Origin: Thermanaeromonas toyohensis ToBE
Lineage (GTDB): Bacteria > Bacillota > DSM-521 > Neomoorellales > Neomoorellaceae
NCBI RefSeq assembly: GCF_900176005.1
Contig: NZ_LT838272.1
Span: forward strand, 1,383,587 to 1,447,586
Length of the DNA stretch: 64,000 nucleotides
Direction: 5' to 3'
Shown: piece after piece, positions 4,111-62,458 of the stretch
How positions within the stretch are numbered: position 1 is the first letter of the stretch
Layout: each line of letters opens with the position of its first letter
Program-made: the position numbers and the translations under genes
The notes under the pieces: generated by a model
The model's database searches: none
What the model was told of the DNA's origin: nothing
What the model saw: the letters and a program-made list of their open reading frames with translations, nothing else

Positions 4111-4423
4111 AACACGTGGGATCAGGTGGGGCTACACTCCCACATCTCCTAATACCTTTTGGTGGGCGACGGCTGCCTCTTCCGTCCTCTGATCCCCGTT
4201 AATTAATTGTCTTTTTGACAATTCTATTATACTAACTACCTGTAGCACTTTTGAAGATACCATTGTTTCTTAAAGCCAACACGAGATATTCACCCCCCCA
4301 GAAATACTTACATTAGTATCGTGTCGCATTGGCCACAGGGGGCCGGGCTTTTTATGGCCCGGTTTCTTGTTTTTGCATATTTTGATTCGTATTAGGCAGG
4401 CTATAAACAGAGGGGGTGGCGTT

Positions 4424-10503: not shown

Positions 10504-10902
10504 TCAATGGGTGAGGATAATCAGCTCTTCTATTGGGTAATGCCTTTCATTGGCCGTCACTAGGATCAAGTTGTTACGGACGGCTACGGCTGCTATGAGG
10601 GAATCAGTAAGGCTAAGGGTAATGCCTTTCCGAGCGTAGGTATAGCGCCAGCGGCCAGCCAGGCGGGAGGCCTCGTAATCTATGGGATAAAACTTCAGGC
10701 TAGATAAAAACAGCTCTATTGCGGGCAGCTCCTTTTCCCTGGCTCCGGAAAATACCTCGGCCACAGTTATAGGACAGGCAGCCAGAGGAGCTTTCTCCTT
10801 GAGCACTTCTAATAGCGCTATGGTGTGTTTGTTCCCGCGGAAGAAGTCAATTAAGGCTGTGGTATCCAGCAGAAAGCCTTTGACCGGAGCCTTATCTTTC
10901 AT
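10504..10902 (-). CDS. PIN-domain toxin, VapC family
   Basis: 132 aa. VapC toxins are Mg-dependent RNases that typically cut tRNA or rRNA. The conserved acids are visible: Asp in FLLDTTALIDFF (about residue 13), Glu in ITVAEVFSG and Asp in SLTDSLIAAVA. The fourth position, usually D/N in VTxNxxHF, is VTANERHYP. It overlaps the RHH antitoxin gene by 11 bases, the standard vapBC order. Confidence 0.9.
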   Translation of the reverse strand: MKDKAPVKGFLLDTTALIDFFRGNKHTIALLEVLKEKAPLAACPITVAEVFSGAREKELPAIELFLSSLKFYPIDYEASRLAGRWRYTYARKGITLSLTDSLIAAVAVRNNLILVTANERHYPIEELIILTH

Positions 10903-19100: not shown

Positions 19101-19295
19101 ATGAATGACCTTATAGATTGTTGCCCCGTGAGCTGTGATCTCATAAAGGCCATTTTCACAGAAGTCGATGCTTGCTGCCGCAGCTGCCCGGAACATCTCG
19201 AAGGGGATTGCCCGGAATACTGCTTGGCTTACCGGTTGCTGCGACTGGTACCGGCAGACTTTGACTTTGGGGTGGTCGAGAAGAATGAACCTTGA
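19101..19295 (+). CDS. Small Cys-rich protein
   Basis: 64 aa from ATG 19101 with GTGGAGGTGAGAG upstream. Nine Cys in the first half (CCPVSC, CCRSCPEH, CPEYC) suggest one or two zinc or Fe-S knuckles. It overlaps the start of the ParB-methyltransferase gene by 11 bases, so the two are translationally coupled. No family recognised. Confidence 0.65.
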   Translation: MNDLIDCCPVSCDLIKAIFTEVDACCRSCPEHLEGDCPEYCLAYRLLRLVPADFDFGVVEKNEP

Positions 19296-21054
19296 GCATG
19301 TACCAGTAGAAATAGTGCATCCACACCCTGACAACCCGCGGCTAAAGGTGCGCGAGGACGTAGTAGAAATTCTAGCTAGCCGCATAAGGGAGCAAGGTTT
19401 TCAAGAATGTTATGCTATTGTGGTGCGTCCGTGGAATGGAGGGTACCAGGTGGTATCCGGCCATCACCGTTTGGAAGCGGCAAAGCGGGCTGGCTTGAAA
19501 ACAGTACCCTGCTGGGTGAGGGAGATGACCGATGAAGAGGCTTTTATGGAGCTCCTCCTGAGCAACCAGCAGGGCGAGCTGACTCCTTTGGAGCGCGGGA
19601 AGCACGCCTGGGAGGCGGTGCAGAAGTACAGCCGCAACGGGCTCTCCGTGACCGAGTACGCACGGAGGGTTGGAATGGCCCACAACACGGTCAGCGACCT
19701 GATGGCAGCCTATGAAGTTTACCAGGAATGTGTCGCGCGCGCGACAAATTTAGATTCGCTGACCGCGACCCACCTTCGCATCATCTCCCGTGCCGACCGT
19801 GAGGATTGGCCTTGGCTGTGCCAAATGGCCGCCGAAAAGGAGTTGTCCTCTCGTGTTCTTGAAGAGGCTGTGGCCGAAGCCAAGAAGGTAAGCGTTCCTC
19901 CCGAACTGGCCGGCTGGCTCGACCAGACCGAACTCAGGAAACAGGTCGCTGCCGACCTTCAGCGGAAGGCAGGCGACCGCTGGGCTGGCGTCATAGCCAA
20001 GGCATTTGAACTGTACCAATCCCTGCCTGAAGAAACTGAGATATGGGTTGTAGACGTAGAAAAGGACACGGCTGAAAAAATAACGGTAAAGCCGCGCAAA
20101 GAGTTTGTCAAACTGCTAAAGGAGAAGGAAGTGAACACACAGTCGGGATGCGAGAAGGCGAAGCTTGACGTTCTGGCCTGGCTGGAGGAGAATGCAAGGG
20201 CATATGCGGCATGGCAGGCCCGAAAGGCGGCAGAGGCCGAAGCCGAGCGGCGTAGGCTAGAAGAAGAGAGGCAACGCATGGAAGTTTTGCGGAAGTTGGA
20301 ACCCAGGGTTTACTATAAGTCCTGCCTGAACATGGAGGAAGTGCCTGATGAGAGCGTGGATTTGATTTTCGCCGACCCTCCCTATGGAGTTTCAGACGGC
20401 GGGGTTACCGTGCGTTCTGGGGAGTTGGCACCGGTGGACAAGGGCGAGTGGGACAGGCCGGAGAACGTGCCGGACCCAGAGCTCTGGCTGAAGGAGTGCT
20501 GGCGGGTGCTGAAGCCTGGCGGCAGCATCTACGTATCCGGCACACTCCACAACATCTTTGACGTAGCGGTGGCAATGCGGAGGACCGGTTTCACCATCCA
20601 AAATGACATAATCTGGTACAAAAAGAACGCTCCCCCTCTTCTGGCACGCCAGGATATGTATGTCCCGAGCCACGAGACCATTCTTTTCGCAACAAAGGGA
20701 CCCCGTCCCAGCTACTTTGACTACGAGGGCTTGAGAGCGGAAAACGATGGGAAGCAACTCAGGGATGTGTGGGAAATACCGGCACGCAGTGCAGCAGAGA
20801 CCATCTGGCTGGCCGAGGGGGTCCCGGCGAACCCCGCCCAGAAGCCGGAAGCACTCCTGGAGAGGATAATACGTGCCAGTTGTCCCCAGGGCGGCACGGT
20901 GCTGGATCCGTTTGCCGGCACGGGCACGACACTGGCGGTGGCCAAAAGGCTGGGACGTTCGTCTATCGGGTATGAAACCGACGAGAGGATGCGGCCGGTG
21001 ATAGAACAGCGGCTAGACGCAGTAAGAGTGGAGGTGCCCCTTGGTGCCCTATGA
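19285..21054 (+). CDS. ParB-like/DNA methyltransferase fusion
   Basis: 589 aa from ATG 19285; a longer frame starting at 19168 overlaps the Cys-rich gene. Residues 1-110 are a ParB/Srx-type N-terminal domain (VVSGHHRLEAAKRAGL at about 57-72) and about 115-150 an HTH (LSVTEYARRVGMAHNTVSDL). A linker with a coiled coil follows, then a beta-class amino-methyltransferase: motif IV ADPPYGVSDGG at about 361 and motif I GGTVLDPFAGTGTTLAVAKR near 536, giving N4-cytosine or N6-adenine methylation. Such fusions occur in phages and plasmids. It overlaps the following nuclease gene by 14 bases, so modification and cleavage activities may work together. Confidence 0.88.
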   Translation: MNLEHVPVEIVHPHPDNPRLKVREDVVEILASRIREQGFQECYAIVVRPWNGGYQVVSGHHRLEAAKRAGLKTVPCWVREMTDEEAFMELLLSNQQGELTPLERGKHAWEAVQKYSRNGLSVTEYARRVGMAHNTVSDLMAAYEVYQECVARATNLDSLTATHLRIISRADREDWPWLCQMAAEKELSSRVLEEAVAEAKKVSVPPELAGWLDQTELRKQVAADLQRKAGDRWAGVIAKAFELYQSLPEETEIWVVDVEKDTAEKITVKPRKEFVKLLKEKEVNTQSGCEKAKLDVLAWLEENARAYAAWQARKAAEAEAERRRLEEERQRMEVLRKLEPRVYYKSCLNMEEVPDESVDLIFADPPYGVSDGGVTVRSGELAPVDKGEWDRPENVPDPELWLKECWRVLKPGGSIYVSGTLHNIFDVAVAMRRTGFTIQNDIIWYKKNAPPLLARQDMYVPSHETILFATKGPRPSYFDYEGLRAENDGKQLRDVWEIPARSAAETIWLAEGVPANPAQKPEALLERIIRASCPQGGTVLDPFAGTGTTLAVAKRLGRSSIGYETDERMRPVIEQRLDAVRVEVPLGAL

Positions 21055-22598: not shown

Positions 22599-23279
22599 AT
22601 GGTCTTACCGAAGTCGAGAATAGTAACTGTAATGTTGAGCAAGCCGGGGGCCCGGATTCCGTGGTGCTGGCGGGATTACGTACAGCCCTGGCTCTACGGG
22701 TTCATTGACGACGGTGGGAGAGTGCATACGGCGAAGTACAGCCTGTTTACTTTTTCTTTCCTGCCAGTCGGTCCAGTGTTTACGCCAGAAGGCCTGGGTT
22801 CACAGAATGGGGTGTGGGTTTTCCGGTTTGCATCCGCCCTTCCATGGGTGCTTGAGATGGTTTCGCGGGGCGTACAAAAAAGTCGTACTGTAAAGATAGG
22901 AAATGCTGTGCTGAAGCCAGCAGTGGTAACGGAGGAGCCGTTGTCGAGGCGGGCAACTTACCAAACAGGAGCACCAGTCTTGGCAGCAAAGCTAAAAGAA
23001 AGGGGGTTTTGGACGCCAAGGGAGCGAGAATTTGCGGATGCGGTAGCTAGGTCGCTGACTAACCGTTGGGCGTACCTGACGGGAAATGAAGTTTCTCCAG
23101 AAAGTATTCGGTTTGAGTTTCTCGGTTCCGTTCGGCAGAAACTGGTTCAATACCGGGGGCGCAATTTGCTGGCGTTCTCCGGGATTGTGCGGCTTGGCGC
23201 CCCCGATGAGATGCTGACTTTCGCGCAGTGTGTTGGGCTGGGGCAGAAGCCGAGTTGCGGATTCGGTTTTATTATTTGA
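22599..23279 (+). CDS. cas6: Cas6 CRISPR RNA endoribonuclease
   Basis: 226 aa from ATG 22599 (GGAAGGAG). Cas6 cuts precursor crRNA within each repeat, leaving an 8-nt 5' handle. The C-terminus FSGIVRLGAP ... CVGLGQKPSCGFGFII carries the Gly-rich loop (GLGxKxxxGFG) diagnostic of Cas6 RAMP proteins, and the length is normal. A candidate catalytic His lies in GGRVHTAKYSLF. It is the first recognisable gene of the type IV operon and is followed by a strong hairpin and a degenerate mini-array. The crRNA handle would be GTTGTAAC from the adjacent arrays. Confidence 0.85.
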   Translation: MVLPKSRIVTVMLSKPGARIPWCWRDYVQPWLYGFIDDGGRVHTAKYSLFTFSFLPVGPVFTPEGLGSQNGVWVFRFASALPWVLEMVSRGVQKSRTVKIGNAVLKPAVVTEEPLSRRATYQTGAPVLAAKLKERGFWTPREREFADAVARSLTNRWAYLTGNEVSPESIRFEFLGSVRQKLVQYRGRNLLAFSGIVRLGAPDEMLTFAQCVGLGQKPSCGFGFII

Positions 23280-35735: not shown

Positions 35736-36638
35736 TTGCTATGGGATGAAATTCTGCGCCGCAGTAAACATTTTAATGTGGAGGCCGAGGTCATCTTTCG
35801 TGAAGAAGTTCAAAAAACAGTTTTAACCTATTTGAGCCTTAAGAGGTTTTTCTCCGATGCAGTCCTTCAAGGAGGTACAGCACTCCGGCTTTTTTACGGT
35901 AGCCCACGGTTTTCAGAGGATCTTGATTTTGTGTTTACCGCCAGAGACAGTAAGGCATTTAGTACCGCAGAACACTGGCTTCATGGTGTCGAAACATTTG
36001 TCATGCAAAATTTCCCTTTTATCCAGGAGGCCAGTCTTAACGAGCAAAGAGAAAATGGTAGCCTTAGATGGTTTGTTCTTCGAGCAAAAACTGCCACGGT
36101 AAGGAGGAGTTTAAGGATAAATATAGAGCTGGCAAATGTTCTCTCCTACCATCACAATGTTGCCGTTCTTCAGCAGCCGCCCTTAAATCCTGCTGTAAGG
36201 GTTGAAAGTCCTTCGGAAATTATGGCTGATAAGGTAGTTGCGATTGCGTTGCGCGATTATATCAAAGGGAGGGACCTGTGGGATATCATTTTCTTATCCG
36301 AGAACAGAAACGTAGGTATTGACGTTTCTTTAACCGCTCAGAAAGCTACTGATTATGGGAGTAATCAGGACGAATTTTACGAAAAGCTTCTAGCGGCAGC
36401 AGAAAGAATTCGCAAGGGAGGAGTTGCTTCACTGGAGCGAGAAATGGTACGGTTTCTTCCCGGCTCTGTCGCACCCCTTTACGTTCCCAAGGTGGAAGAA
36501 ATGGTCGAAAAGGTCACCGCTCTACTTGCAACTGTTGCGACGAATTTGAGACATATATTGGAGGCCCAAAACGATGCGGCTGACCGAGTGGCTAAACTTT
36601 TTTCGGCAAAACGACCGCAAAAAGGTTTTCGCCTTTAG
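35736..36638 (+). CDS. AbiEii-like nucleotidyltransferase toxin
   Basis: 300 aa from TTG 35736. VLQGGTALRLFYGSPRFSED followed by LDF (about residues 42-66) is the nucleotidyltransferase signature of PF08843/AbiEii. Such toxins inactivate tRNA by adding nucleotides (MenT family) and block phage growth in type IV TA systems. The N-terminus (EILRRSKHFNVEAEVIFREE) and IMADKVVAIALRDYIKGRDLWD are also typical. The order here is toxin first, with the antitoxin overlapping its 3' end, the reverse of the usual abiEi-abiEii order. Confidence 0.88.
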   Translation: MLWDEILRRSKHFNVEAEVIFREEVQKTVLTYLSLKRFFSDAVLQGGTALRLFYGSPRFSEDLDFVFTARDSKAFSTAEHWLHGVETFVMQNFPFIQEASLNEQRENGSLRWFVLRAKTATVRRSLRINIELANVLSYHHNVAVLQQPPLNPAVRVESPSEIMADKVVAIALRDYIKGRDLWDIIFLSENRNVGIDVSLTAQKATDYGSNQDEFYEKLLAAAERIRKGGVASLEREMVRFLPGSVAPLYVPKVEEMVEKVTALLATVATNLRHILEAQNDAADRVAKLFSAKRPQKGFRL

Positions 36639-37200
36639 CGACCTTGTGCAGATGACCGGTATACCCAAAGACACCTTGCGGGTAGAACTTTCGCGCCTTG
36701 TAGCCCGTGGGGTAGTCCGCCGGCTGGCACGCGAATGGTATGCAAATCCCTTTTCGCCGCCTTCAGTGGAAGAGGTTGCAATGGTATTGCGCTGGCCTTC
36801 TTATGTTTCTCTTGAATACGCTCTTTCGGTTGAGAGTATTCTCAGTCAGACAGCTTTCACGATCACGTGTGTTACCTTAAAACTTCCTGTTGTTATCCGC
36901 ACGCCGTGGGGACCGATTTTTGAATACCACCGTATCTCGCGAAGGTTCTTCTGGGGGTGGCGCGATTTGGGGAACGGGGTTCGCGCGGCGTGGCCGGAGA
37001 AGGCGCTCCTGGACTTGATCTACATCCGGCATCTGAGGACACGAGAGCTCAACGAAGAAGACCTGGCTTCAATGCTGGAGGACATGTACCTGGAGGATTT
37101 AGATATGGGGCGGTTGCGTGAGTTCATTGGCGGCTTCGGGTCCCCTTACGGCGAGAAGATGGCTGCTGTCCTCATGGGAACAGGCCGGGTAAACCTGTAG
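36574..37200 (+). CDS. AbiEi-like antitoxin
   Basis: 208 aa from ATG 36574 (TTGGAGG upstream), overlapping the toxin gene by 65 bases. The N-terminal winged helix (FAFSDLVQMTGIPKDTLRVE) and the C-terminal AbiEi domain (FEYHRISRRFFWGWRDLGNG then AWPEKALLDLIYIRHL) match the transcriptional-regulator antitoxin family that represses its own operon. A broken copy lies at 35408-35639 and an orphan relative at 48121-48747. Confidence 0.87.
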   Translation: MRLTEWLNFFRQNDRKKVFAFSDLVQMTGIPKDTLRVELSRLVARGVVRRLAREWYANPFSPPSVEEVAMVLRWPSYVSLEYALSVESILSQTAFTITCVTLKLPVVIRTPWGPIFEYHRISRRFFWGWRDLGNGVRAAWPEKALLDLIYIRHLRTRELNEEDLASMLEDMYLEDLDMGRLREFIGGFGSPYGEKMAAVLMGTGRVNL

Positions 37201-37482: not shown

Positions 37483-37558
37483 AGGGGAGTAGCTCAGCAG
37501 GTAGAGCGGCCGGCTGTTAACCGGCATGTCGCAGGTTCGAGGCCTGCCTCCCCTGCCA
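37483..37558 (+). tRNA. tRNA-Asn (GTT), copy 1
   Basis: Acceptor AGGGGAG/CTCCCCT, D arm starting TAGCTCAG, anticodon loop CTGTTAACC (GTT), T arm GCAGG TTCGAGG CCTGC, encoded CCA at 37556-37558. All stems pair. It is the first member of a tRNA cluster on this element. Confidence 0.95.
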
Positions 37559-37701
37559 GCGAAATGTATGTCTGCATCAGTGCAGGCTAAGATTGAGATG
37601 GCTGGCGGTGTTTTGAGCAGCCGGTACTATCAGGTTGCCTTTAGGTATTTGGGCGTTGAAATCCCCGGGACGCGGGTTCGGGCCTCGCCTTTCCCACACG
37701 C

Positions 37702-37777
37702 GGGATTGTAGTTCAATCGGCAGGAAACCCGCCCCGCAAGCGGAGGGTTGCCGATTCGAGTTCGGCCGATTCCGTCA
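37702..37777 (+). tRNA. Degenerate tRNA-like sequence
   Basis: Acceptor GGGATTG/CGATTCC pairs with two wobbles and the T arm GCCGA TTCGAGT TCGGC is perfect. However, the D stem has an extra A, the anticodon region (CCCGC CCCGCAA GCGGA) has C instead of U33, and the 3' end is GTCA rather than CCA. It is probably a decaying tRNA gene; the anticodon cannot be assigned safely. Just upstream (37668-37695) a second T-arm-like piece (GCGGGTTCGGGCCTCGC) suggests another tRNA lost here. Confidence 0.4.
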
Positions 37778-38590: not shown

Positions 38591-39295
38591 GTGAAGCCCC
38601 TTGGCATCAAGGCTTACGGTCACATACCGCATTTGATCGGCTCCCGGGTCGGCCCCGGCGATCACACTGTCTCCGAGGGGCAGCACCGCATCTGCACCGA
38701 AAAGGCCCGGGACAGGCATGACGAGATTTTCGTCGAGGAAAAGCTCGACGGGAGTTGCGTGGCCGTCGCCCTGGTGGGCGGTAAGATAATTCCCTTGGTG
38801 AGGGCGGGCTACGTGGCTTGGTCTTCCCCCTACGAGCAGCACCACCTGTTCGCCTGGTGGGTTCGGGAGAACGAGGAGAGGTTCCGCGCGGTGCTCAGGG
38901 AGGGCGAAAGGCTTGTGGGCGAGTGGCTGGCCCAGGCACACGGGACAAGGTACGTCCTGCCCCACGAACCCTTCGTGGTTTTCGACCTGATGCGTGGTCA
39001 CGAGAGGGAGCCGCGTGAAGTCTTTTGGGAAAGGGTCAAGGGCCTGTTTGTGGTGCCGCGACTCATCCACCGCGGCGGGCCGATAAGCATCGGACGTGTG
39101 CTGGAGCTCTTGGAGCCTTCGGGGCACGGTGCCGTCGACCCGGTGGAGGGCGCGGTATGGCGGGTGGAACGCCGGGAAAAGGTGGACTTCCTCGCCAAGT
39201 ACGTCAGGCCGGACAAGGTGGACGGCAGGTACCTGCCGGAGTACACCGGAACCGGACCGGTATGGAACTGGATGCCTGCGACGCAGTCACGATAG
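38591..39295 (+). CDS. RNA ligase, T4 Rnl2-like
   Basis: 234 aa from GTG 38591. ATP-dependent RNA ligase that seals 3'-OH/5'-phosphate breaks. Motif I EEKLDG with the AMP-accepting Lys at 51, motif III-like FVVFDL at about 128, motif IV PVEGAVWR (Glu 186), motif V FLAKYVRPDK (Lys 203, Lys 209). The compact size suggests a nucleotidyltransferase domain with little C-terminal extension. It lies 27 bases upstream of a tRNA-Ser gene and a cluster of four tRNAs. Phages use such ligases to repair tRNAs cut by host anticodon nucleases; the neighbourhood suggests a similar role here. Confidence 0.85.
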   Translation: MKPLGIKAYGHIPHLIGSRVGPGDHTVSEGQHRICTEKARDRHDEIFVEEKLDGSCVAVALVGGKIIPLVRAGYVAWSSPYEQHHLFAWWVRENEERFRAVLREGERLVGEWLAQAHGTRYVLPHEPFVVFDLMRGHEREPREVFWERVKGLFVVPRLIHRGGPISIGRVLELLEPSGHGAVDPVEGAVWRVERREKVDFLAKYVRPDKVDGRYLPEYTGTGPVWNWMPATQSR

Positions 39296-39321
39296 TTGGG
39301 GCAGGTATCGGTTTGTCACAC

Positions 39322-39412
39322 GGAGGGGTGCCCGAGCGGCTAAAGGGGGCGGCCTCGAAAGCCGCTGGGCCTCTGGTCGGCCCCGTGGGTTCGAATCCCA
39401 CCCCCTCCGCCA
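39322..39412 (+). tRNA. tRNA-Ser (CGA)
   Basis: Acceptor GGAGGGG/CCCCTCC, long variable arm of a class II tRNA, anticodon CGA in CCTCGAAAG, T arm GTGGG TTCGAAT CCCAC, encoded CCA at 39410-39412. Confidence 0.95.
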
Positions 39413-39417
39413 CGCGC

Positions 39418-39492
39418 AGGTGAGTAGCTCAATGGTAGAGCGACCGGCTGTTAACCGGGCGGTTGCAGGTTCGAGTCCCGCCTCTCCTGCCA
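39418..39492 (+). tRNA. tRNA-Asn (GTT), copy 2
   Basis: Anticodon loop CTGTTAACC as in copy 1. Acceptor AGGTGAG pairs with CTCTCCT except for a T4-T69 mismatch; encoded CCA at 39490-39492. It has diverged from copy 1 in acceptor and variable loop. Confidence 0.9.
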
Positions 39493-39498
39493 ATTCGT

Positions 39499-39570
39499 AG
39501 GGGTGTGGCCAAGCGGTAAGGCAGCGCACTCTGGATCCGCGATGCGCTGGTTCGAAACCAGCCGCCCCTG
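39499..39570 (+). tRNA. tRNA-Gln (CTG)
   Basis: Acceptor AGGGGTG/CGCCCCT, D arm GCC/GGC, anticodon CTG (loop CTCTGGA), T arm CTGG TTCGAAA CCAG. The anticodon stem has a C30-C40 mismatch and the gene is followed by CTA instead of CCA, so the end must be made by the CCA-adding enzyme. Confidence 0.85.
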
Positions 39571-39673
39571 CTAGCAAAACATACAACAATTACGCTGCCT
39601 ACCAGGATGCGATTTGCTGGTACAGTTTTTGGGATCTGATATTGTGAGCTGGTTTTCGGGCAGCGTTTTATAG

Positions 39674-39766
39674 GGAGGGCTGGCCGAGCGGCGAAGGCAC
39701 CCGCCTGCTAAGCGGGTGGGCGGCCCTGAGGTCGTCCCGGGGGTTCGAATCCCCCGCCCTCCGCCA
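39674..39766 (+). tRNA. tRNA-Ser (GCT)
   Basis: Acceptor GGAGGGC/GCCCTCC, class II variable arm, anticodon GCT in CTGCTAAG, T arm CGGGG TTCGAAT CCCCC, encoded CCA at 39764-39766. Confidence 0.95.
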
Positions 39767-39876: not shown

Positions 39877-40221
39877 GTGTTAAAGGAACAGTTAGAGATC
39901 ATTCCAGACGGGGCGATAGAGAAAATACCGATTACGGAATCCTCGGATAAGATCGACAGCCTGTTCGCGCGGGCTGTCAGGGAACTGGAGGCCAAAAGGC
40001 GGACGTTCGCCAGGCTTCAGGAGGATCCCGAACTGATACTGAAAGAGCTTTTCGACCCGGCGCGGGATAGGCCGTACTATGCTTTCCCGTTTCTGGTGTT
40101 CGAGAGGTGCCGCGAACTGGGGCTGCCAGGATGTGAATATCACTGGCTCCAGGATTACCTTGTGGGGGTGATTTCCCGACATTTGCAAGGAATCGATCCG
40201 GACATAGAAGTTGTGGCCCAG
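39877..40221 (+). pseudogene. Unknown gene interrupted by IscB element
   Basis: From GTG 39877 (CAGGGGGC upstream) the frame runs about 115 residues: MLKEQLEIIPDGAIEKIPIT, helical middle, then GVISRHLQGIDPDIEVVAQG. It then enters the left-end hairpin of the IscB element, where an artefactual tail leads to a stop at 40278. The coding character ends at about 40221. After the element's right end (about 41913) a short continuation may exist, but the reading frame after precise excision is not certain. No family recognised. Confidence 0.6.
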
Positions 40222-40450
40222 GGTCAACTACCCCGTCCTGAAGGACGGGGCTTGCAGGCGGGGGCGTACTGTCTGTGAGTTTCCCTTTTAGGGAGGTAGT
40301 TGAACGCGGGTGTACCGCTGCGGGACCTGACGTTTCAGGGCGACACTCCCAGCTCTGAGAGACACCGGTGCAATCCCGGGGCCTGACGCGTGGTGCGGCG
40401 GTACGCCTCAGGGAGACCCACCACCTTTTGGTGCCCGGATCACAGGGCTC
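40222..40450 (+). ncRNA. Omega RNA (HEARO-type) of IscB
   Basis: The 230 bases directly upstream of iscB are GC-rich, gene-free and full of complementary segments: TCAACTACC (40223) with GGTAGTTGA (40298-40306), GCGGGTGTACCGC near 40308, and CCCACCACC TTTT GGTG near 40418. IscB guide RNAs lie in exactly this place, with the guide at the 5' end reading into the left flank, here GTTGTGGCCCAGG. The structure was judged by eye. Confidence 0.75.
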
Positions 40451-40468
40451 CTTGTGGGAGGTATCCAT

Positions 40469-41869
40469 ATGGTGATATTTACTGTAGACAGGAATGGGAA
40501 CCCCGGTCATCCGACCAGGAGATTTGACATGATCCGGAAGCTGAGGAAGCGGAAGAGGGTAAGGATTATCGGCGGTGGGAAATCGGGCAAGCCGCCGGTT
40601 GCAGTCTTTCTGGACAGGGAATTTGACTATTCGCGCACTGTAGGGAGAAAGCTGGTCATAGTCCTAGACCCTGGTTACCGCTATATAGGTTTTGCCGTAT
40701 GCGAACCGAGGGGTGGAAAGCTGATTGTTTACTGCCGCGGTGTCCTCCGTACGCGGATTCCTGAGATCAAAGGGCTGATGTCCGATAGGAGGTCCTTCCG
40801 CCGGTTCAGGAGGTATCTGTCGCGGTACAAGAAGAAGCGCCTTTCTGCGAGGCAGTGCAGGGTGCTGACCAAGTTCAAGGCACCGAGGGACGTGAGGTCG
40901 AAGGACAGGAGCAATGCCACCCTCAGGCACGGCGTAGAGACGCACCTGAACCTTTACCGGAAGCTGCGCAGGTTTTTCCCTTTTCCGGCGCACCAGGTAG
41001 AGTTTGTCATGGAGGACAACGTATTCGACGTCAGGGCCATGACCTGGGGCAAGGTATACGGAGCTGATTACCAGGTATCGCCCCGCGCTCCTGAGGGTGA
41101 AAGAAAATGCATTCTGTGTGGTTCGCAAGAGGACCTTCACCGGCACCATCTTGTTCCGCGGAAGAGCGGGGGCACAGAAGTCAGGGAGAACAAGGTGTAC
41201 CTCTGCGCGGGCTGTCATGAAGAGGTCCACGCCGGCAGGGTGTTTCTTCCGGTCAGGGGCATCAAGCAGTGGCGCGAGCTGGGGACGATGAACGCTGTTA
41301 TGGGGGTACTGCGTGAGGTGCCGTATATCAGCTTTGTGCCTGCGCCCGAGGTGGTCCTCAAGAGGAGGGAGTTGGGCCTAGGGAAGGACCATGCTGATGA
41401 CGCTCTTGCGGCAGCGGCCGCTTTCTGCGGCTGTACTGGTTTTGACGCCTCTGTGGAACGCCGTCTCATGCTGGTCAAATTCAGGAGGCACGCCAGGGCG
41501 AGGGTACACGCTCAGAAGGACAGGCTCTACAAGGTAGACGGAGTGATCATAGCGAGGAATAGGCGGAAGAGGGGGGACCAGAATGATCCTTCCTTTGCCG
41601 ATGTGTTTCCTCTTTCTCCAGAGCAGCAGAGAGGCCTGAAGGTATACCCGGGAACCAAAATACTCAACCCGTTCAGGAACGATGTTTTAACCATCGGAGG
41701 CGACGTGTGGGTTCATATTCCGACCGGCAGGCGTTTTGTAGCGACCGGTGTGATATCGGAGAAGTACCTGTACTCCCCGATGCTAGAGGAAATTACAGGA
41801 AAGCCATACATTCACCCCGATCAATGCCGACGGGTGATCCGCAGTGAAGGGATAGTAGTATGGAGCTAG
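40469..41869 (+). CDS. iscB: IscB RNA-guided nuclease
   Basis: 466 aa from ATG 40469 (GGGAGG 6 bases upstream). The ancestor-type relative of Cas9. PLMP-like N-terminus (MVIFTVDRNGNPGHPTRRFD), RuvC-I VIVLDPGYRYIGFA (Asp 67), Arg-rich bridge helix (about 107-128), RuvC-II EFVMEDNVFDVR (Glu 182), HNH with CILCG ... LHRHHLVPRKSGG ... CAGCHEEVH (about 214-254), RuvC-III GKDHADDALAAAAA near 311, and a C-terminal domain with IHPDQCRRV. All catalytic positions appear intact. The omega RNA lies just upstream. Confidence 0.92.
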   Translation: MVIFTVDRNGNPGHPTRRFDMIRKLRKRKRVRIIGGGKSGKPPVAVFLDREFDYSRTVGRKLVIVLDPGYRYIGFAVCEPRGGKLIVYCRGVLRTRIPEIKGLMSDRRSFRRFRRYLSRYKKKRLSARQCRVLTKFKAPRDVRSKDRSNATLRHGVETHLNLYRKLRRFFPFPAHQVEFVMEDNVFDVRAMTWGKVYGADYQVSPRAPEGERKCILCGSQEDLHRHHLVPRKSGGTEVRENKVYLCAGCHEEVHAGRVFLPVRGIKQWRELGTMNAVMGVLREVPYISFVPAPEVVLKRRELGLGKDHADDALAAAAAFCGCTGFDASVERRLMLVKFRRHARARVHAQKDRLYKVDGVIIARNRRKRGDQNDPSFADVFPLSPEQQRGLKVYPGTKILNPFRNDVLTIGGDVWVHIPTGRRFVATGVISEKYLYSPMLEEITGKPYIHPDQCRRVIRSEGIVVWS

Positions 41870-60202: not shown

Positions 60203-62458
60203 ATGAAACCCAGGATACTTGCCTTTCTCCTGTCTTTAGTCACTTTGGTCGGAATTTTGTTTTTATTGCCTCTACCTTCAAGGGCGGCGGAGCAGACAGC
60301 AATATTTACGATAGGGAGCAATGTTTACACGGTCAACGGTCAGCAGTTCCTTATGGACGTTACCCCATACACTAAGGATGGCCGGACCTTTATTCCCCTG
60401 AGGTATGCTGCCCAGGCCCTGGGCGTCACCCCGAAGAATATTCTGTATGATGGCGGTAAAGTCACCCTCATCAAGGGTAATAAGGTTATCCAGCTCACCA
60501 TCGGCAGCAACGTTATGACAGTTAACGGTACTGCTACGGCCATGGACGTGGCCCCGGAAGTTATCGGTGGCCGGACCATGGTCCCCTTCCGGTGGATGGC
60601 CCAGGTCTTTGATGCCCGGATAGAGTGGAACCCAGAACGGCAGCAGGTGGTCATTAGGCTGGACGACCAGCCGGCCACTCCGGTATCCGATAATCAGCAG
60701 CAAAAACCTCAGGCTCCGACCGGGCTGCACCTGGTAAGCATTAGCCCGGCAGGGGTACCTAACCACTATGTAATAACCCTGGGCTGGGACCCTGTAAACA
60801 ATGCGAGCGGGTACAGGGTTTATGAGACCCATTCTTGGACACCCCAGGGGCCCGCCTTCATAGAGACCAATACTAACAGCTACACCAGCACTTTTGCGGG
60901 TACCTCCTGGGAGTTCTACGTCACCGCGGTAAATTCAGCAGGGGAGAGCCCGCCGAGCAATACCATATCCGTCTCTGCTGGTGCGTCAGTTGGGAACAGG
61001 CTTGAAGCACCGACCGGGCTGCATCTGGTGAGCATCACTCCAGAGATAAGCGCCACCTCTCAGCGCATTATAGGGGCCAGTGTAACCATCTCCTGGGATC
61101 CAGTAAATGGGGCTACCGGGTACCGGGTGTATACACTGGTAAGCACTACAGAGAGCAGCAAATGGGTTATCTGCGGATATCCTACCAATCCCACTTTTAC
61201 CATCCGTTATCCCCTCATGGTTAAAAACAACGTCACCGAAGCATTTTACGTGACGGCGGTTAACCAGGAGGGTGAGGAAAGCCCTCCCAGCCAAACATTG
61301 CAGGTGACGCTTCCTGACTGGAATGTTGTAGGGAACGTCAACCAGGCGGCTAGTCAGCCGTCCAATAATCAGGCCCCCAAGCCTGAGGCCCCTACTGGAT
61401 TGCACGTGAACCTTAGCCCGATGAGCAGCTCTGGTATGTCCGGCTTTTGGGTGACCATCTCCTGGAACCCGGTAAACGACGCGGCCGGCTACAAGATCTA
61501 TACTTCTGATTACCTTGATCAAAACGGCACGTGGACTCCACCGCATGAGCTAGCCTTATGTTCTGGGAACAGTTATTCTTATTCTTACGCTGCCTTCCCG
61601 GTTAGCACCACCCTCACCAAAATTTATGTGACGGCGGTGAACCAGGCGGGAGAAGAAGGCCCTCCGAGCGAAACAGTACAGATATCCTGGACAACGAACA
61701 ATGTTTCCTACGGGCAATCCTCGGCCTCCAAGGTGGTGGTCCTTCCTCCCCTTCAATACCCTGGGGGCCTGGAGACAATCCGTAATACGTACACCTGGTA
61801 CTACGAAGGAAAGCAGTTCAGCTGGACCATCGAGGTGCCTCAAGTGCTCGTGAAATACGAGCAGGGCCAGAAAATGATCAAATGGCCCCTCTGGTACGTG
61901 TTTGCAGCTTCAAACCCTGCCATGTGGTTTGCCAGCCTGATCGCAACGGGCTCTCCCATAACCATGGCCCAGGAGATCCTGAATAATATGCTGGTACAGG
62001 ATAGGACAAGCTCGGAGTACATAGGCTGTGTGGCCGATCGTTTAAACCGTGCGGCAGAAGCCCAGGGCTACGACGTTTTCCGCAAGGCCGAATTTATCGC
62101 TGCTTTTGTCCAATCCATACCCTACAAAATCATCTTTCCGACCAACACGGAGTACCCGCCCCAGGTCATTGCCCACGGCGGGGACTGCATCAATAAGTCC
62201 GTGCTTCTGGCAGCCATCTTAAGGAAGCTCGGGTACCGGGTGGCCATTCTGGTCTATCCCCTTCCTATCGCCCATGCCGCAGTAGGTGTGGCCTTCTCCG
62301 TGGATCAGATACCGAGCGATAGGCTGACAATGAACCTGCGAGGCTACTTCCGGGGAAATACGAACTACTACTTCATCGAAACCACTGAGCCGGGGTGGAG
62401 GATCGGGGAGCTGAGCGTCCCCGAAACTGCCAGGCCCGCCATCTGTGAGATTTGGTGA
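60203..62458 (+). CDS. Secreted Cu-amine-oxidase-N / FnIII / transglutaminase protein
   Basis: 751 aa from ATG 60203 (GGGGGAGAGG). Signal peptide (ILAFLLSLVTLVGILFLLPL, cleavage after SRAAE). Two copper-amine-oxidase N-terminal repeats, residues about 35-150 (DGRTFIPLRYAAQALGV; GGRTMVPFRWMAQVFDA). Three fibronectin III domains about 165-255, 265-370 and 395-495 (repeated APTGLHL ... VTISWDPVNGATGYRVY ... FYVTAVNQ.GEE.PPS). A C-terminal transglutaminase-like domain (HGGDCINKSVLLAAILRKLG; AHAAVGVAFS) supplies Cys and His. It is probably a cell-surface protein that binds wall and acts on peptide bonds, or a structural adhesin. The largest open frame after the helicase. Confidence 0.85.
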   Translation: MKPRILAFLLSLVTLVGILFLLPLPSRAAEQTAIFTIGSNVYTVNGQQFLMDVTPYTKDGRTFIPLRYAAQALGVTPKNILYDGGKVTLIKGNKVIQLTIGSNVMTVNGTATAMDVAPEVIGGRTMVPFRWMAQVFDARIEWNPERQQVVIRLDDQPATPVSDNQQQKPQAPTGLHLVSISPAGVPNHYVITLGWDPVNNASGYRVYETHSWTPQGPAFIETNTNSYTSTFAGTSWEFYVTAVNSAGESPPSNTISVSAGASVGNRLEAPTGLHLVSITPEISATSQRIIGASVTISWDPVNGATGYRVYTLVSTTESSKWVICGYPTNPTFTIRYPLMVKNNVTEAFYVTAVNQEGEESPPSQTLQVTLPDWNVVGNVNQAASQPSNNQAPKPEAPTGLHVNLSPMSSSGMSGFWVTISWNPVNDAAGYKIYTSDYLDQNGTWTPPHELALCSGNSYSYSYAAFPVSTTLTKIYVTAVNQAGEEGPPSETVQISWTTNNVSYGQSSASKVVVLPPLQYPGGLETIRNTYTWYYEGKQFSWTIEVPQVLVKYEQGQKMIKWPLWYVFAASNPAMWFASLIATGSPITMAQEILNNMLVQDRTSSEYIGCVADRLNRAAEAQGYDVFRKAEFIAAFVQSIPYKIIFPTNTEYPPQVIAHGGDCINKSVLLAAILRKLGYRVAILVYPLPIAHAAVGVAFSVDQIPSDRLTMNLRGYFRGNTNYYFIETTEPGWRIGELSVPETARPAICEIW

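Follow-up and report, generated by a model that had tools for sequence, protein, structure and literature searches.

The RNA ligase gene and the extra tRNA genes that lie next to each other in the 64,000-nucleotide stretch of the Thermanaeromonas toyohensis ToBE genome analysed here (the window) are probably two independent cargo modules, placed side by side in mosaic mobile DNA of conjugation type. We favour this reading because tRNA genes were adjacent to none of 35 related ligase loci and were no more numerous there than the background, the ligase is sporadic, a tRNA cluster without a ligase exists in a genome of the same family, the flanks carry conjugation genes, and the region differs from the host in GC content and in its enrichment in the codon TCG. 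The initial annotation had joined both into a single phage-type set for tRNA repair and replacement. The ligase and the redundant tRNAs are real, but the evidence suggests that they were over-joined and that they are neighbours by chance rather than a repair kit. Were the set true, a conjugative element would be carrying a kit for repairing and replacing tRNAs; what we observed favours ordinary mosaic cargo.

Judged by its motifs and its Pfam match (RNA_ligase, PF09414; E 5e-17, above the cut-off), the ligase is a predicted member of the ATP-dependent RNA ligase superfamily. It carries motifs I (EKLDG, with Lys51), Ia (R71xG73), III (GEW, E111), IIIa (FDLM), IV (VEGAV, E186) and V (K203), and in an alignment of 27 sequences of the ligase family K51, D53, G54, R71, E111, E186 and K203 were invariant, the catalytic lysine of KxDG being present. 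The alignment also disclosed an N-terminal block (KPLGxKAYGSIPHLPGSRxGPxD) followed by KLDG, GEW, FDLM, DPVEGAVWR and KYVRPDK. With the Rnl2-type enzymes (T4 Rnl2 and the trypanosome RNA editing ligases; PF09414) the protein shares the Pfam match and motifs I, III, IIIa, IV and V, but it differs from them in the conserved N-terminal block of its own and in a K-x-V-R at motif V, where K-x-K is usual. Moreover, motifs I-V occupy residues 44-206 of its 234 amino acids, leaving no room for the C-terminal domain of Rnl2 proper.

The AlphaFold model of the ligase had a mean pLDDT of 94.9, its confident part stopping near residue 230, and the top solved structures retrieved with Foldseek were RNA ligases of the archaeal Rnl3 type, at E 1.7e-7 and a TM of about 0.5 (about 0.33 when normalised by the target). 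T4 Rnl2 and the editing ligase ranked below these structures, and the profile matches gave the same picture, with archaeal Rnl3-type ligases best and T4 Rnl2 lower. Since the archaeal structures outrank T4 Rnl2, the term Rnl2-like used in the initial annotation is too specific, whereas the label compact RNA ligase is justified. The protein does not belong to Rnl2 proper, as it has no C-terminal domain and its closest likeness is not to T4 Rnl2 or the editing ligases. It is not an Rnl3 either: although the archaeal enzymes (Pyrococcus abyssi PAB1020, Palaeococcus pacificus and Methanothermobacter MthRnl) are its best profile and fold matches, it is only about 18% identical to them and lacks the additional dimerisation and C-terminal domains of these proteins of about 370-400 amino acids. 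The same figures bear on the idea that the ligase, instead of repairing RNA, circularises or matures one like archaeal Rnl3, which we regard as rather unlikely: the top matches are indeed to enzymes that circularise RNAs (PMC12153264), but the low identity, the TM of about 0.5 and the missing domains argue against a shared role. We propose instead that the first module encodes a stand-alone ATP-dependent RNA ligase that would self-adenylate on Lys51 and seal RNA ends bearing a 5'-phosphate and a 3'-hydroxyl, a form of RNA repair that could operate in any host.

Most likely, this ligase is a new member of an unnamed family of compact RNA ligases. Its match to PHROG 38169 (E 2e-56) covers residues 1-214, and this PHROG is an unnamed phage protein family with no function given, the phage members of which are annotated as hypothetical. 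We gathered relatives at 14 viral and 21 bacterial loci (47-77% identity), plus seven Flavobacterium phage records and four plasmids; most are 235-260 amino acids long. The nearest is encoded in an Ammonifex MAG (77% identical), and those of Flavobacterium phages 6H, 2A and FPSV, also annotated as hypothetical, are about 46% identical. Among 61 related genomes, a single one carries the ligase. The lasting value of these observations lies in this family, unnamed, sharply conserved and minimal (about 235 amino acids), whose members turn up in phages and across many phyla, on plasmids as well as on chromosomes.

Table 1. Ligase, tRNA and AbiE features (window positions unless a locus is named)
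Feature	Position	Strand	Evidence and remarks
AbiEii-type nucleotidyltransferase toxin	35736-36638	+	Pfam PF08843 (E 4e-26), PADLOC
AbiEi-type antitoxin	36574-37200	+	NCBIfam, PADLOC
Extra tRNA-Asn(GTT), copy 1	37483-37558	+	ARAGORN, Rfam (67 bits); CCA encoded; 72% identical to chromosomal Asn, same loop
tRNA-Ala(CGC)-like, weak	37701-37776	+	ARAGORN only; C33 (no U33), without CCA
Compact RNA ligase	38591-39295	+	Pfam PF09414, PHROG 38169; GTG start; 234 aa, single nucleotidyltransferase domain
Extra tRNA-Ser(CGA)	39322-39412	+	ARAGORN, Rfam; 74% identical to chromosomal copy
Extra tRNA-Asn(GTT), copy 2	39418-39492	+	ARAGORN, Rfam; 81% identical to chromosomal Asn
Extra tRNA-Gln(CTG)	39499-39571	+	ARAGORN, Rfam; CCA not encoded, one anticodon-stem mismatch
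Extra tRNA-Ser(GCT)	39673-39766	+	ARAGORN, Rfam; 75% identical to chromosomal copy
Ligase-AbiEii-AbiEi-like neighbourhood	L057, L058, L060, L061, L062 and L122:4466-6738		Five Myxococcota and a Deinococcus plasmid

The arrangement described in the initial annotation, with one Asn(GTT) ahead of the ligase and Ser(CGA), a further Asn(GTT), Gln(CTG) and Ser(GCT) after it, was borne out by ARAGORN, Rfam, Pfam and PHROG (Table 1). The Ala(CGC)-like sequence, absent from the Rfam matches, is probably degenerate and was set aside as doubtful. The genome, a single contig, measures 3.33 Mb and gave 52 tRNA matches with Rfam; each of the four isoacceptors also has a gene elsewhere on the chromosome (Asn, 818305; Ser(CGA), 90956; Ser(GCT), 89976; Gln(CTG), 1879193). 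Those of the window are thus additional to the chromosomal set, and the refuting outcome named in the initial annotation, that they would be the sole genomic copies, did not occur. They are diverged (63-81% identical to their chromosomal counterparts), the Gln(CTG) gene being 63% identical to chromosomal Gln(CTG) and 84% to chromosomal Gln(TTG). The duplicate Asn and the two Ser tRNAs had been taken to point to the target of a nuclease, but they do not single out one nuclease, as the likeness between the two Asn genes is no more than 84% and the genes form a heterogeneous set. A DNA search for the tRNA block in phages returned just short tRNA matches. In a published case of phage tRNAs escaping nucleases the loops are mutated (PMC10264068), and the initial annotation proposed to check whether the loops here differ from the chromosomal ones. 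They do not: the seven-base anticodon loops (CTGTTAA, CTCGAAA, CTGCTAA and CTCTGGA) were the same in all five extra tRNAs and in the chromosomal isoacceptors, a comparison that covers the loop only (stems and modifications may matter), and nuclease-resistant anticodon loops were rejected on this basis.

Linkage between the ligase and tRNAs was not found elsewhere. The 35 ligase loci (458 kb) contained six tRNAs in all, while about seven would be expected from the density in this genome (52 per 3.33 Mb), and in none of them was a tRNA adjacent to the ligase; the Ammonifex MAG locus had no tRNA within 8 kb. Among complete viral or plasmid records that bear the ligase, three of 13 contain any tRNA, and tRNA linkage as a trait of the ligase family was rejected on the 35 loci. 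A genome of the same family (G008) has an extra tRNA cluster (Met, Asn, Leu, Trp and Arg) without a ligase, and the extra Asn tRNA in it is 88% identical to window Asn copy 2, versus 81% for the chromosomal Asn of T. toyohensis. Two considerations go against independent modules: the gap of 26 bases between the ligase stop and Ser(CGA), on the same strand, fits co-transcription, and a lone case leaves room for a link specific to this element. The G008 cluster (L116/L117; G008:C2, about 516.2-517.0 kb) has a degenerate Leu gene and sits between genes that, by sequence appearance only, were named SbcC- and SbcD-like. Near it there is also a copy (L117:4740-5378), 52% identical, of the Cas6-type endoribonuclease encoded at 22599-23279 of the window, whose TIGR01877 match is just under the cut-off.

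These results make it unlikely that the locus is one counter-defence set in which the ligase mends nuclease-cut tRNAs and the extra tRNAs replace them. The adjacency of the genes and the redundancy and divergence of the tRNAs would suit such a set, and phage and plasmid tRNA sets have been proposed as anti-defence devices (PMC10264068, PMC12803027). Nevertheless, of the features of a phage-type repair and replacement set, the locus displays the redundancy with the host but neither altered loops nor a bacterial Pnkp-type healing enzyme. We found no match to bacterial Pnkp in this genome and no PrrC/RloC-type protein above the cut-off, and PrrC/RloC was rejected as a threat to these tRNAs. The ATP-dependent sealing step predicted for the window ligase recalls T4 Pnk/Rnl1 and the bacterial Pnkp1-Rnl-Hen1 system, from which the lack of bacterial Pnkp sets it apart. 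On the other hand, ten PIN/VapC-type genes are present in the genome. PIN nucleases leave 5'-phosphate/3'-hydroxyl ends, which a lone ligase could seal, and such ends keep the idea of tRNA repair alive, with a low probability. For the PrrC class a lone ligase would be insufficient, since PrrC leaves a cyclic phosphate and its product undergoes healing by T4 Pnk ahead of sealing by the ligase (PMC2610378).

Codon use may account for the tRNAs in part. When ORFs of the element and of the host, called mechanically, were compared, TCG, which is read by Ser(CGA), was the most enriched of the 61 codons (from 3.5 to 8.7 per thousand), a codon that the host seldom uses and whose frequency in the element is 2.5 times as high. 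CAG and AAC were modestly up, AGC was unchanged, and AAT and AGT were depleted. These figures offer a reason for Ser(CGA) and, weakly, for Gln(CTG), but not for Asn and Ser(GCT), the codon sets of which were not enriched overall. It is possible, if doubtful, that the tRNAs serve purely as codon compensation for a GC-richer element, the ligase being irrelevant to them; the TCG figure and the modest rises in CAG and AAC fit this, yet the strongly enriched ACG, CCG, CTG and GAC have no matching tRNA in the cluster, and the lack of overall enrichment in the Asn and Ser(GCT) codon sets speaks against it too. That, among the codons of these tRNAs, enrichment extends to TCG and, weakly, to CAG and AAC but no further, in ORFs called mechanically, also counts against the two-module reading that we prefer. 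According to the latter, the second module would supply extra tRNAs that top up or back up the host pool after transfer, with Ser(CGA) serving TCG, Gln(CTG) fitting weakly, and Asn and Ser(GCT) being at most backup copies. In mycobacterial plasmids and mycobacteriophages, tRNA array units likewise place redundant, diverged tRNAs on a mobile element (PMC12803027), but the window has four to six genes instead of a large array, and unchanged anticodon loops. With these loops, and with one tRNA whose codon is the one that most distinguishes the element from the host, the tRNA half offers a small test case for why mobile elements carry tRNAs.

The initial annotation also drew attention to AbiE and VapC toxins nearby. 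The AbiE pair (35736-37200) is indeed 1.4 kb upstream of the ligase, but the PIN protein (VapC; about 10537-10872, minus strand) is 28 kb away from it. At six loci, one on a Deinococcus plasmid and the others in five Myxococcota, the ligase family adjoins an AbiEii nucleotidyltransferase and an AbiEi-like partner, which in Myxococcus is fused to a Ham1 domain; we found no description of this conserved module. While these loci could be taken to mean that the window ligase partners the neighbouring AbiE pair, this is highly improbable, as the pair is of a different clade and tRNA genes lie between it and the ligase. Because of this difference in clade, the closeness of the two is probably a coincidence, and the window AbiEii is probably not part of the ligase-tRNA set. 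AbiEii was found in none of 12 virus or phage records bearing the ligase, and AbiE linkage as a general trait of the family was rejected, being confined to Myxococcota and the Deinococcus plasmid. A broader proposal is that phages and mobile elements have spread the compact ligases as an uncharacterised RNA ligase class of their own, that those of Myxococcota and Deinococcus rebuild damaged tRNA together with AbiEii and the AbiEi-like (Ham1-fused) protein, and that the window is a variant carrying replacement tRNAs; we consider this quite improbable.

Of the genome sequence, the analysis used stretches around the tRNAs, the flanks and sampled regions. The flanks encode a type IV secretion coupling protein TraG/VirD4 (T4SS-DNA_transf, E 8e-43), TrbL (E 4e-62) and TraG-type P-loop ATPases, as well as an M23/SLT wall hydrolase and an actin-like partition protein, and the window contains a serine recombinase, a ParB-methylase, Cas6, AbiE, ThyX and an IscB-like protein. 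GC content was 0.52-0.58 in the region versus 0.49 in sampled host DNA. No phage head, terminase, portal or capsid genes were detected among the proteins scanned against PHROGs, which were a subset of the ORFs. A PHROG tail-protein match at 60203-62458 corresponded by Pfam to an fn3/copper-amine-oxidase-N repeat protein and was not counted as phage evidence. Accordingly, the phage setting assumed at first gives way to a region that is conjugative-element-like and not clearly phage, with both coupling and channel genes of type IV secretion present.

Several other features of the region were observed. It encodes two IscB-like proteins (RRXRR plus HNH) that closely resemble each other, one at 40454-41869 of the window and one at L095:11103-12515, and the window copy may have broken up an ORF at 39877-40278. 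Similarly, a ParB-domain protein with a fused N6/N4 DNA methylase occurs twice, at 19168-21054 of the window and at L093:2773-4548. Finally, a skipping-rope RNA (Rfam, 66 bits) lies on the minus strand at 4118-4196 of the window.
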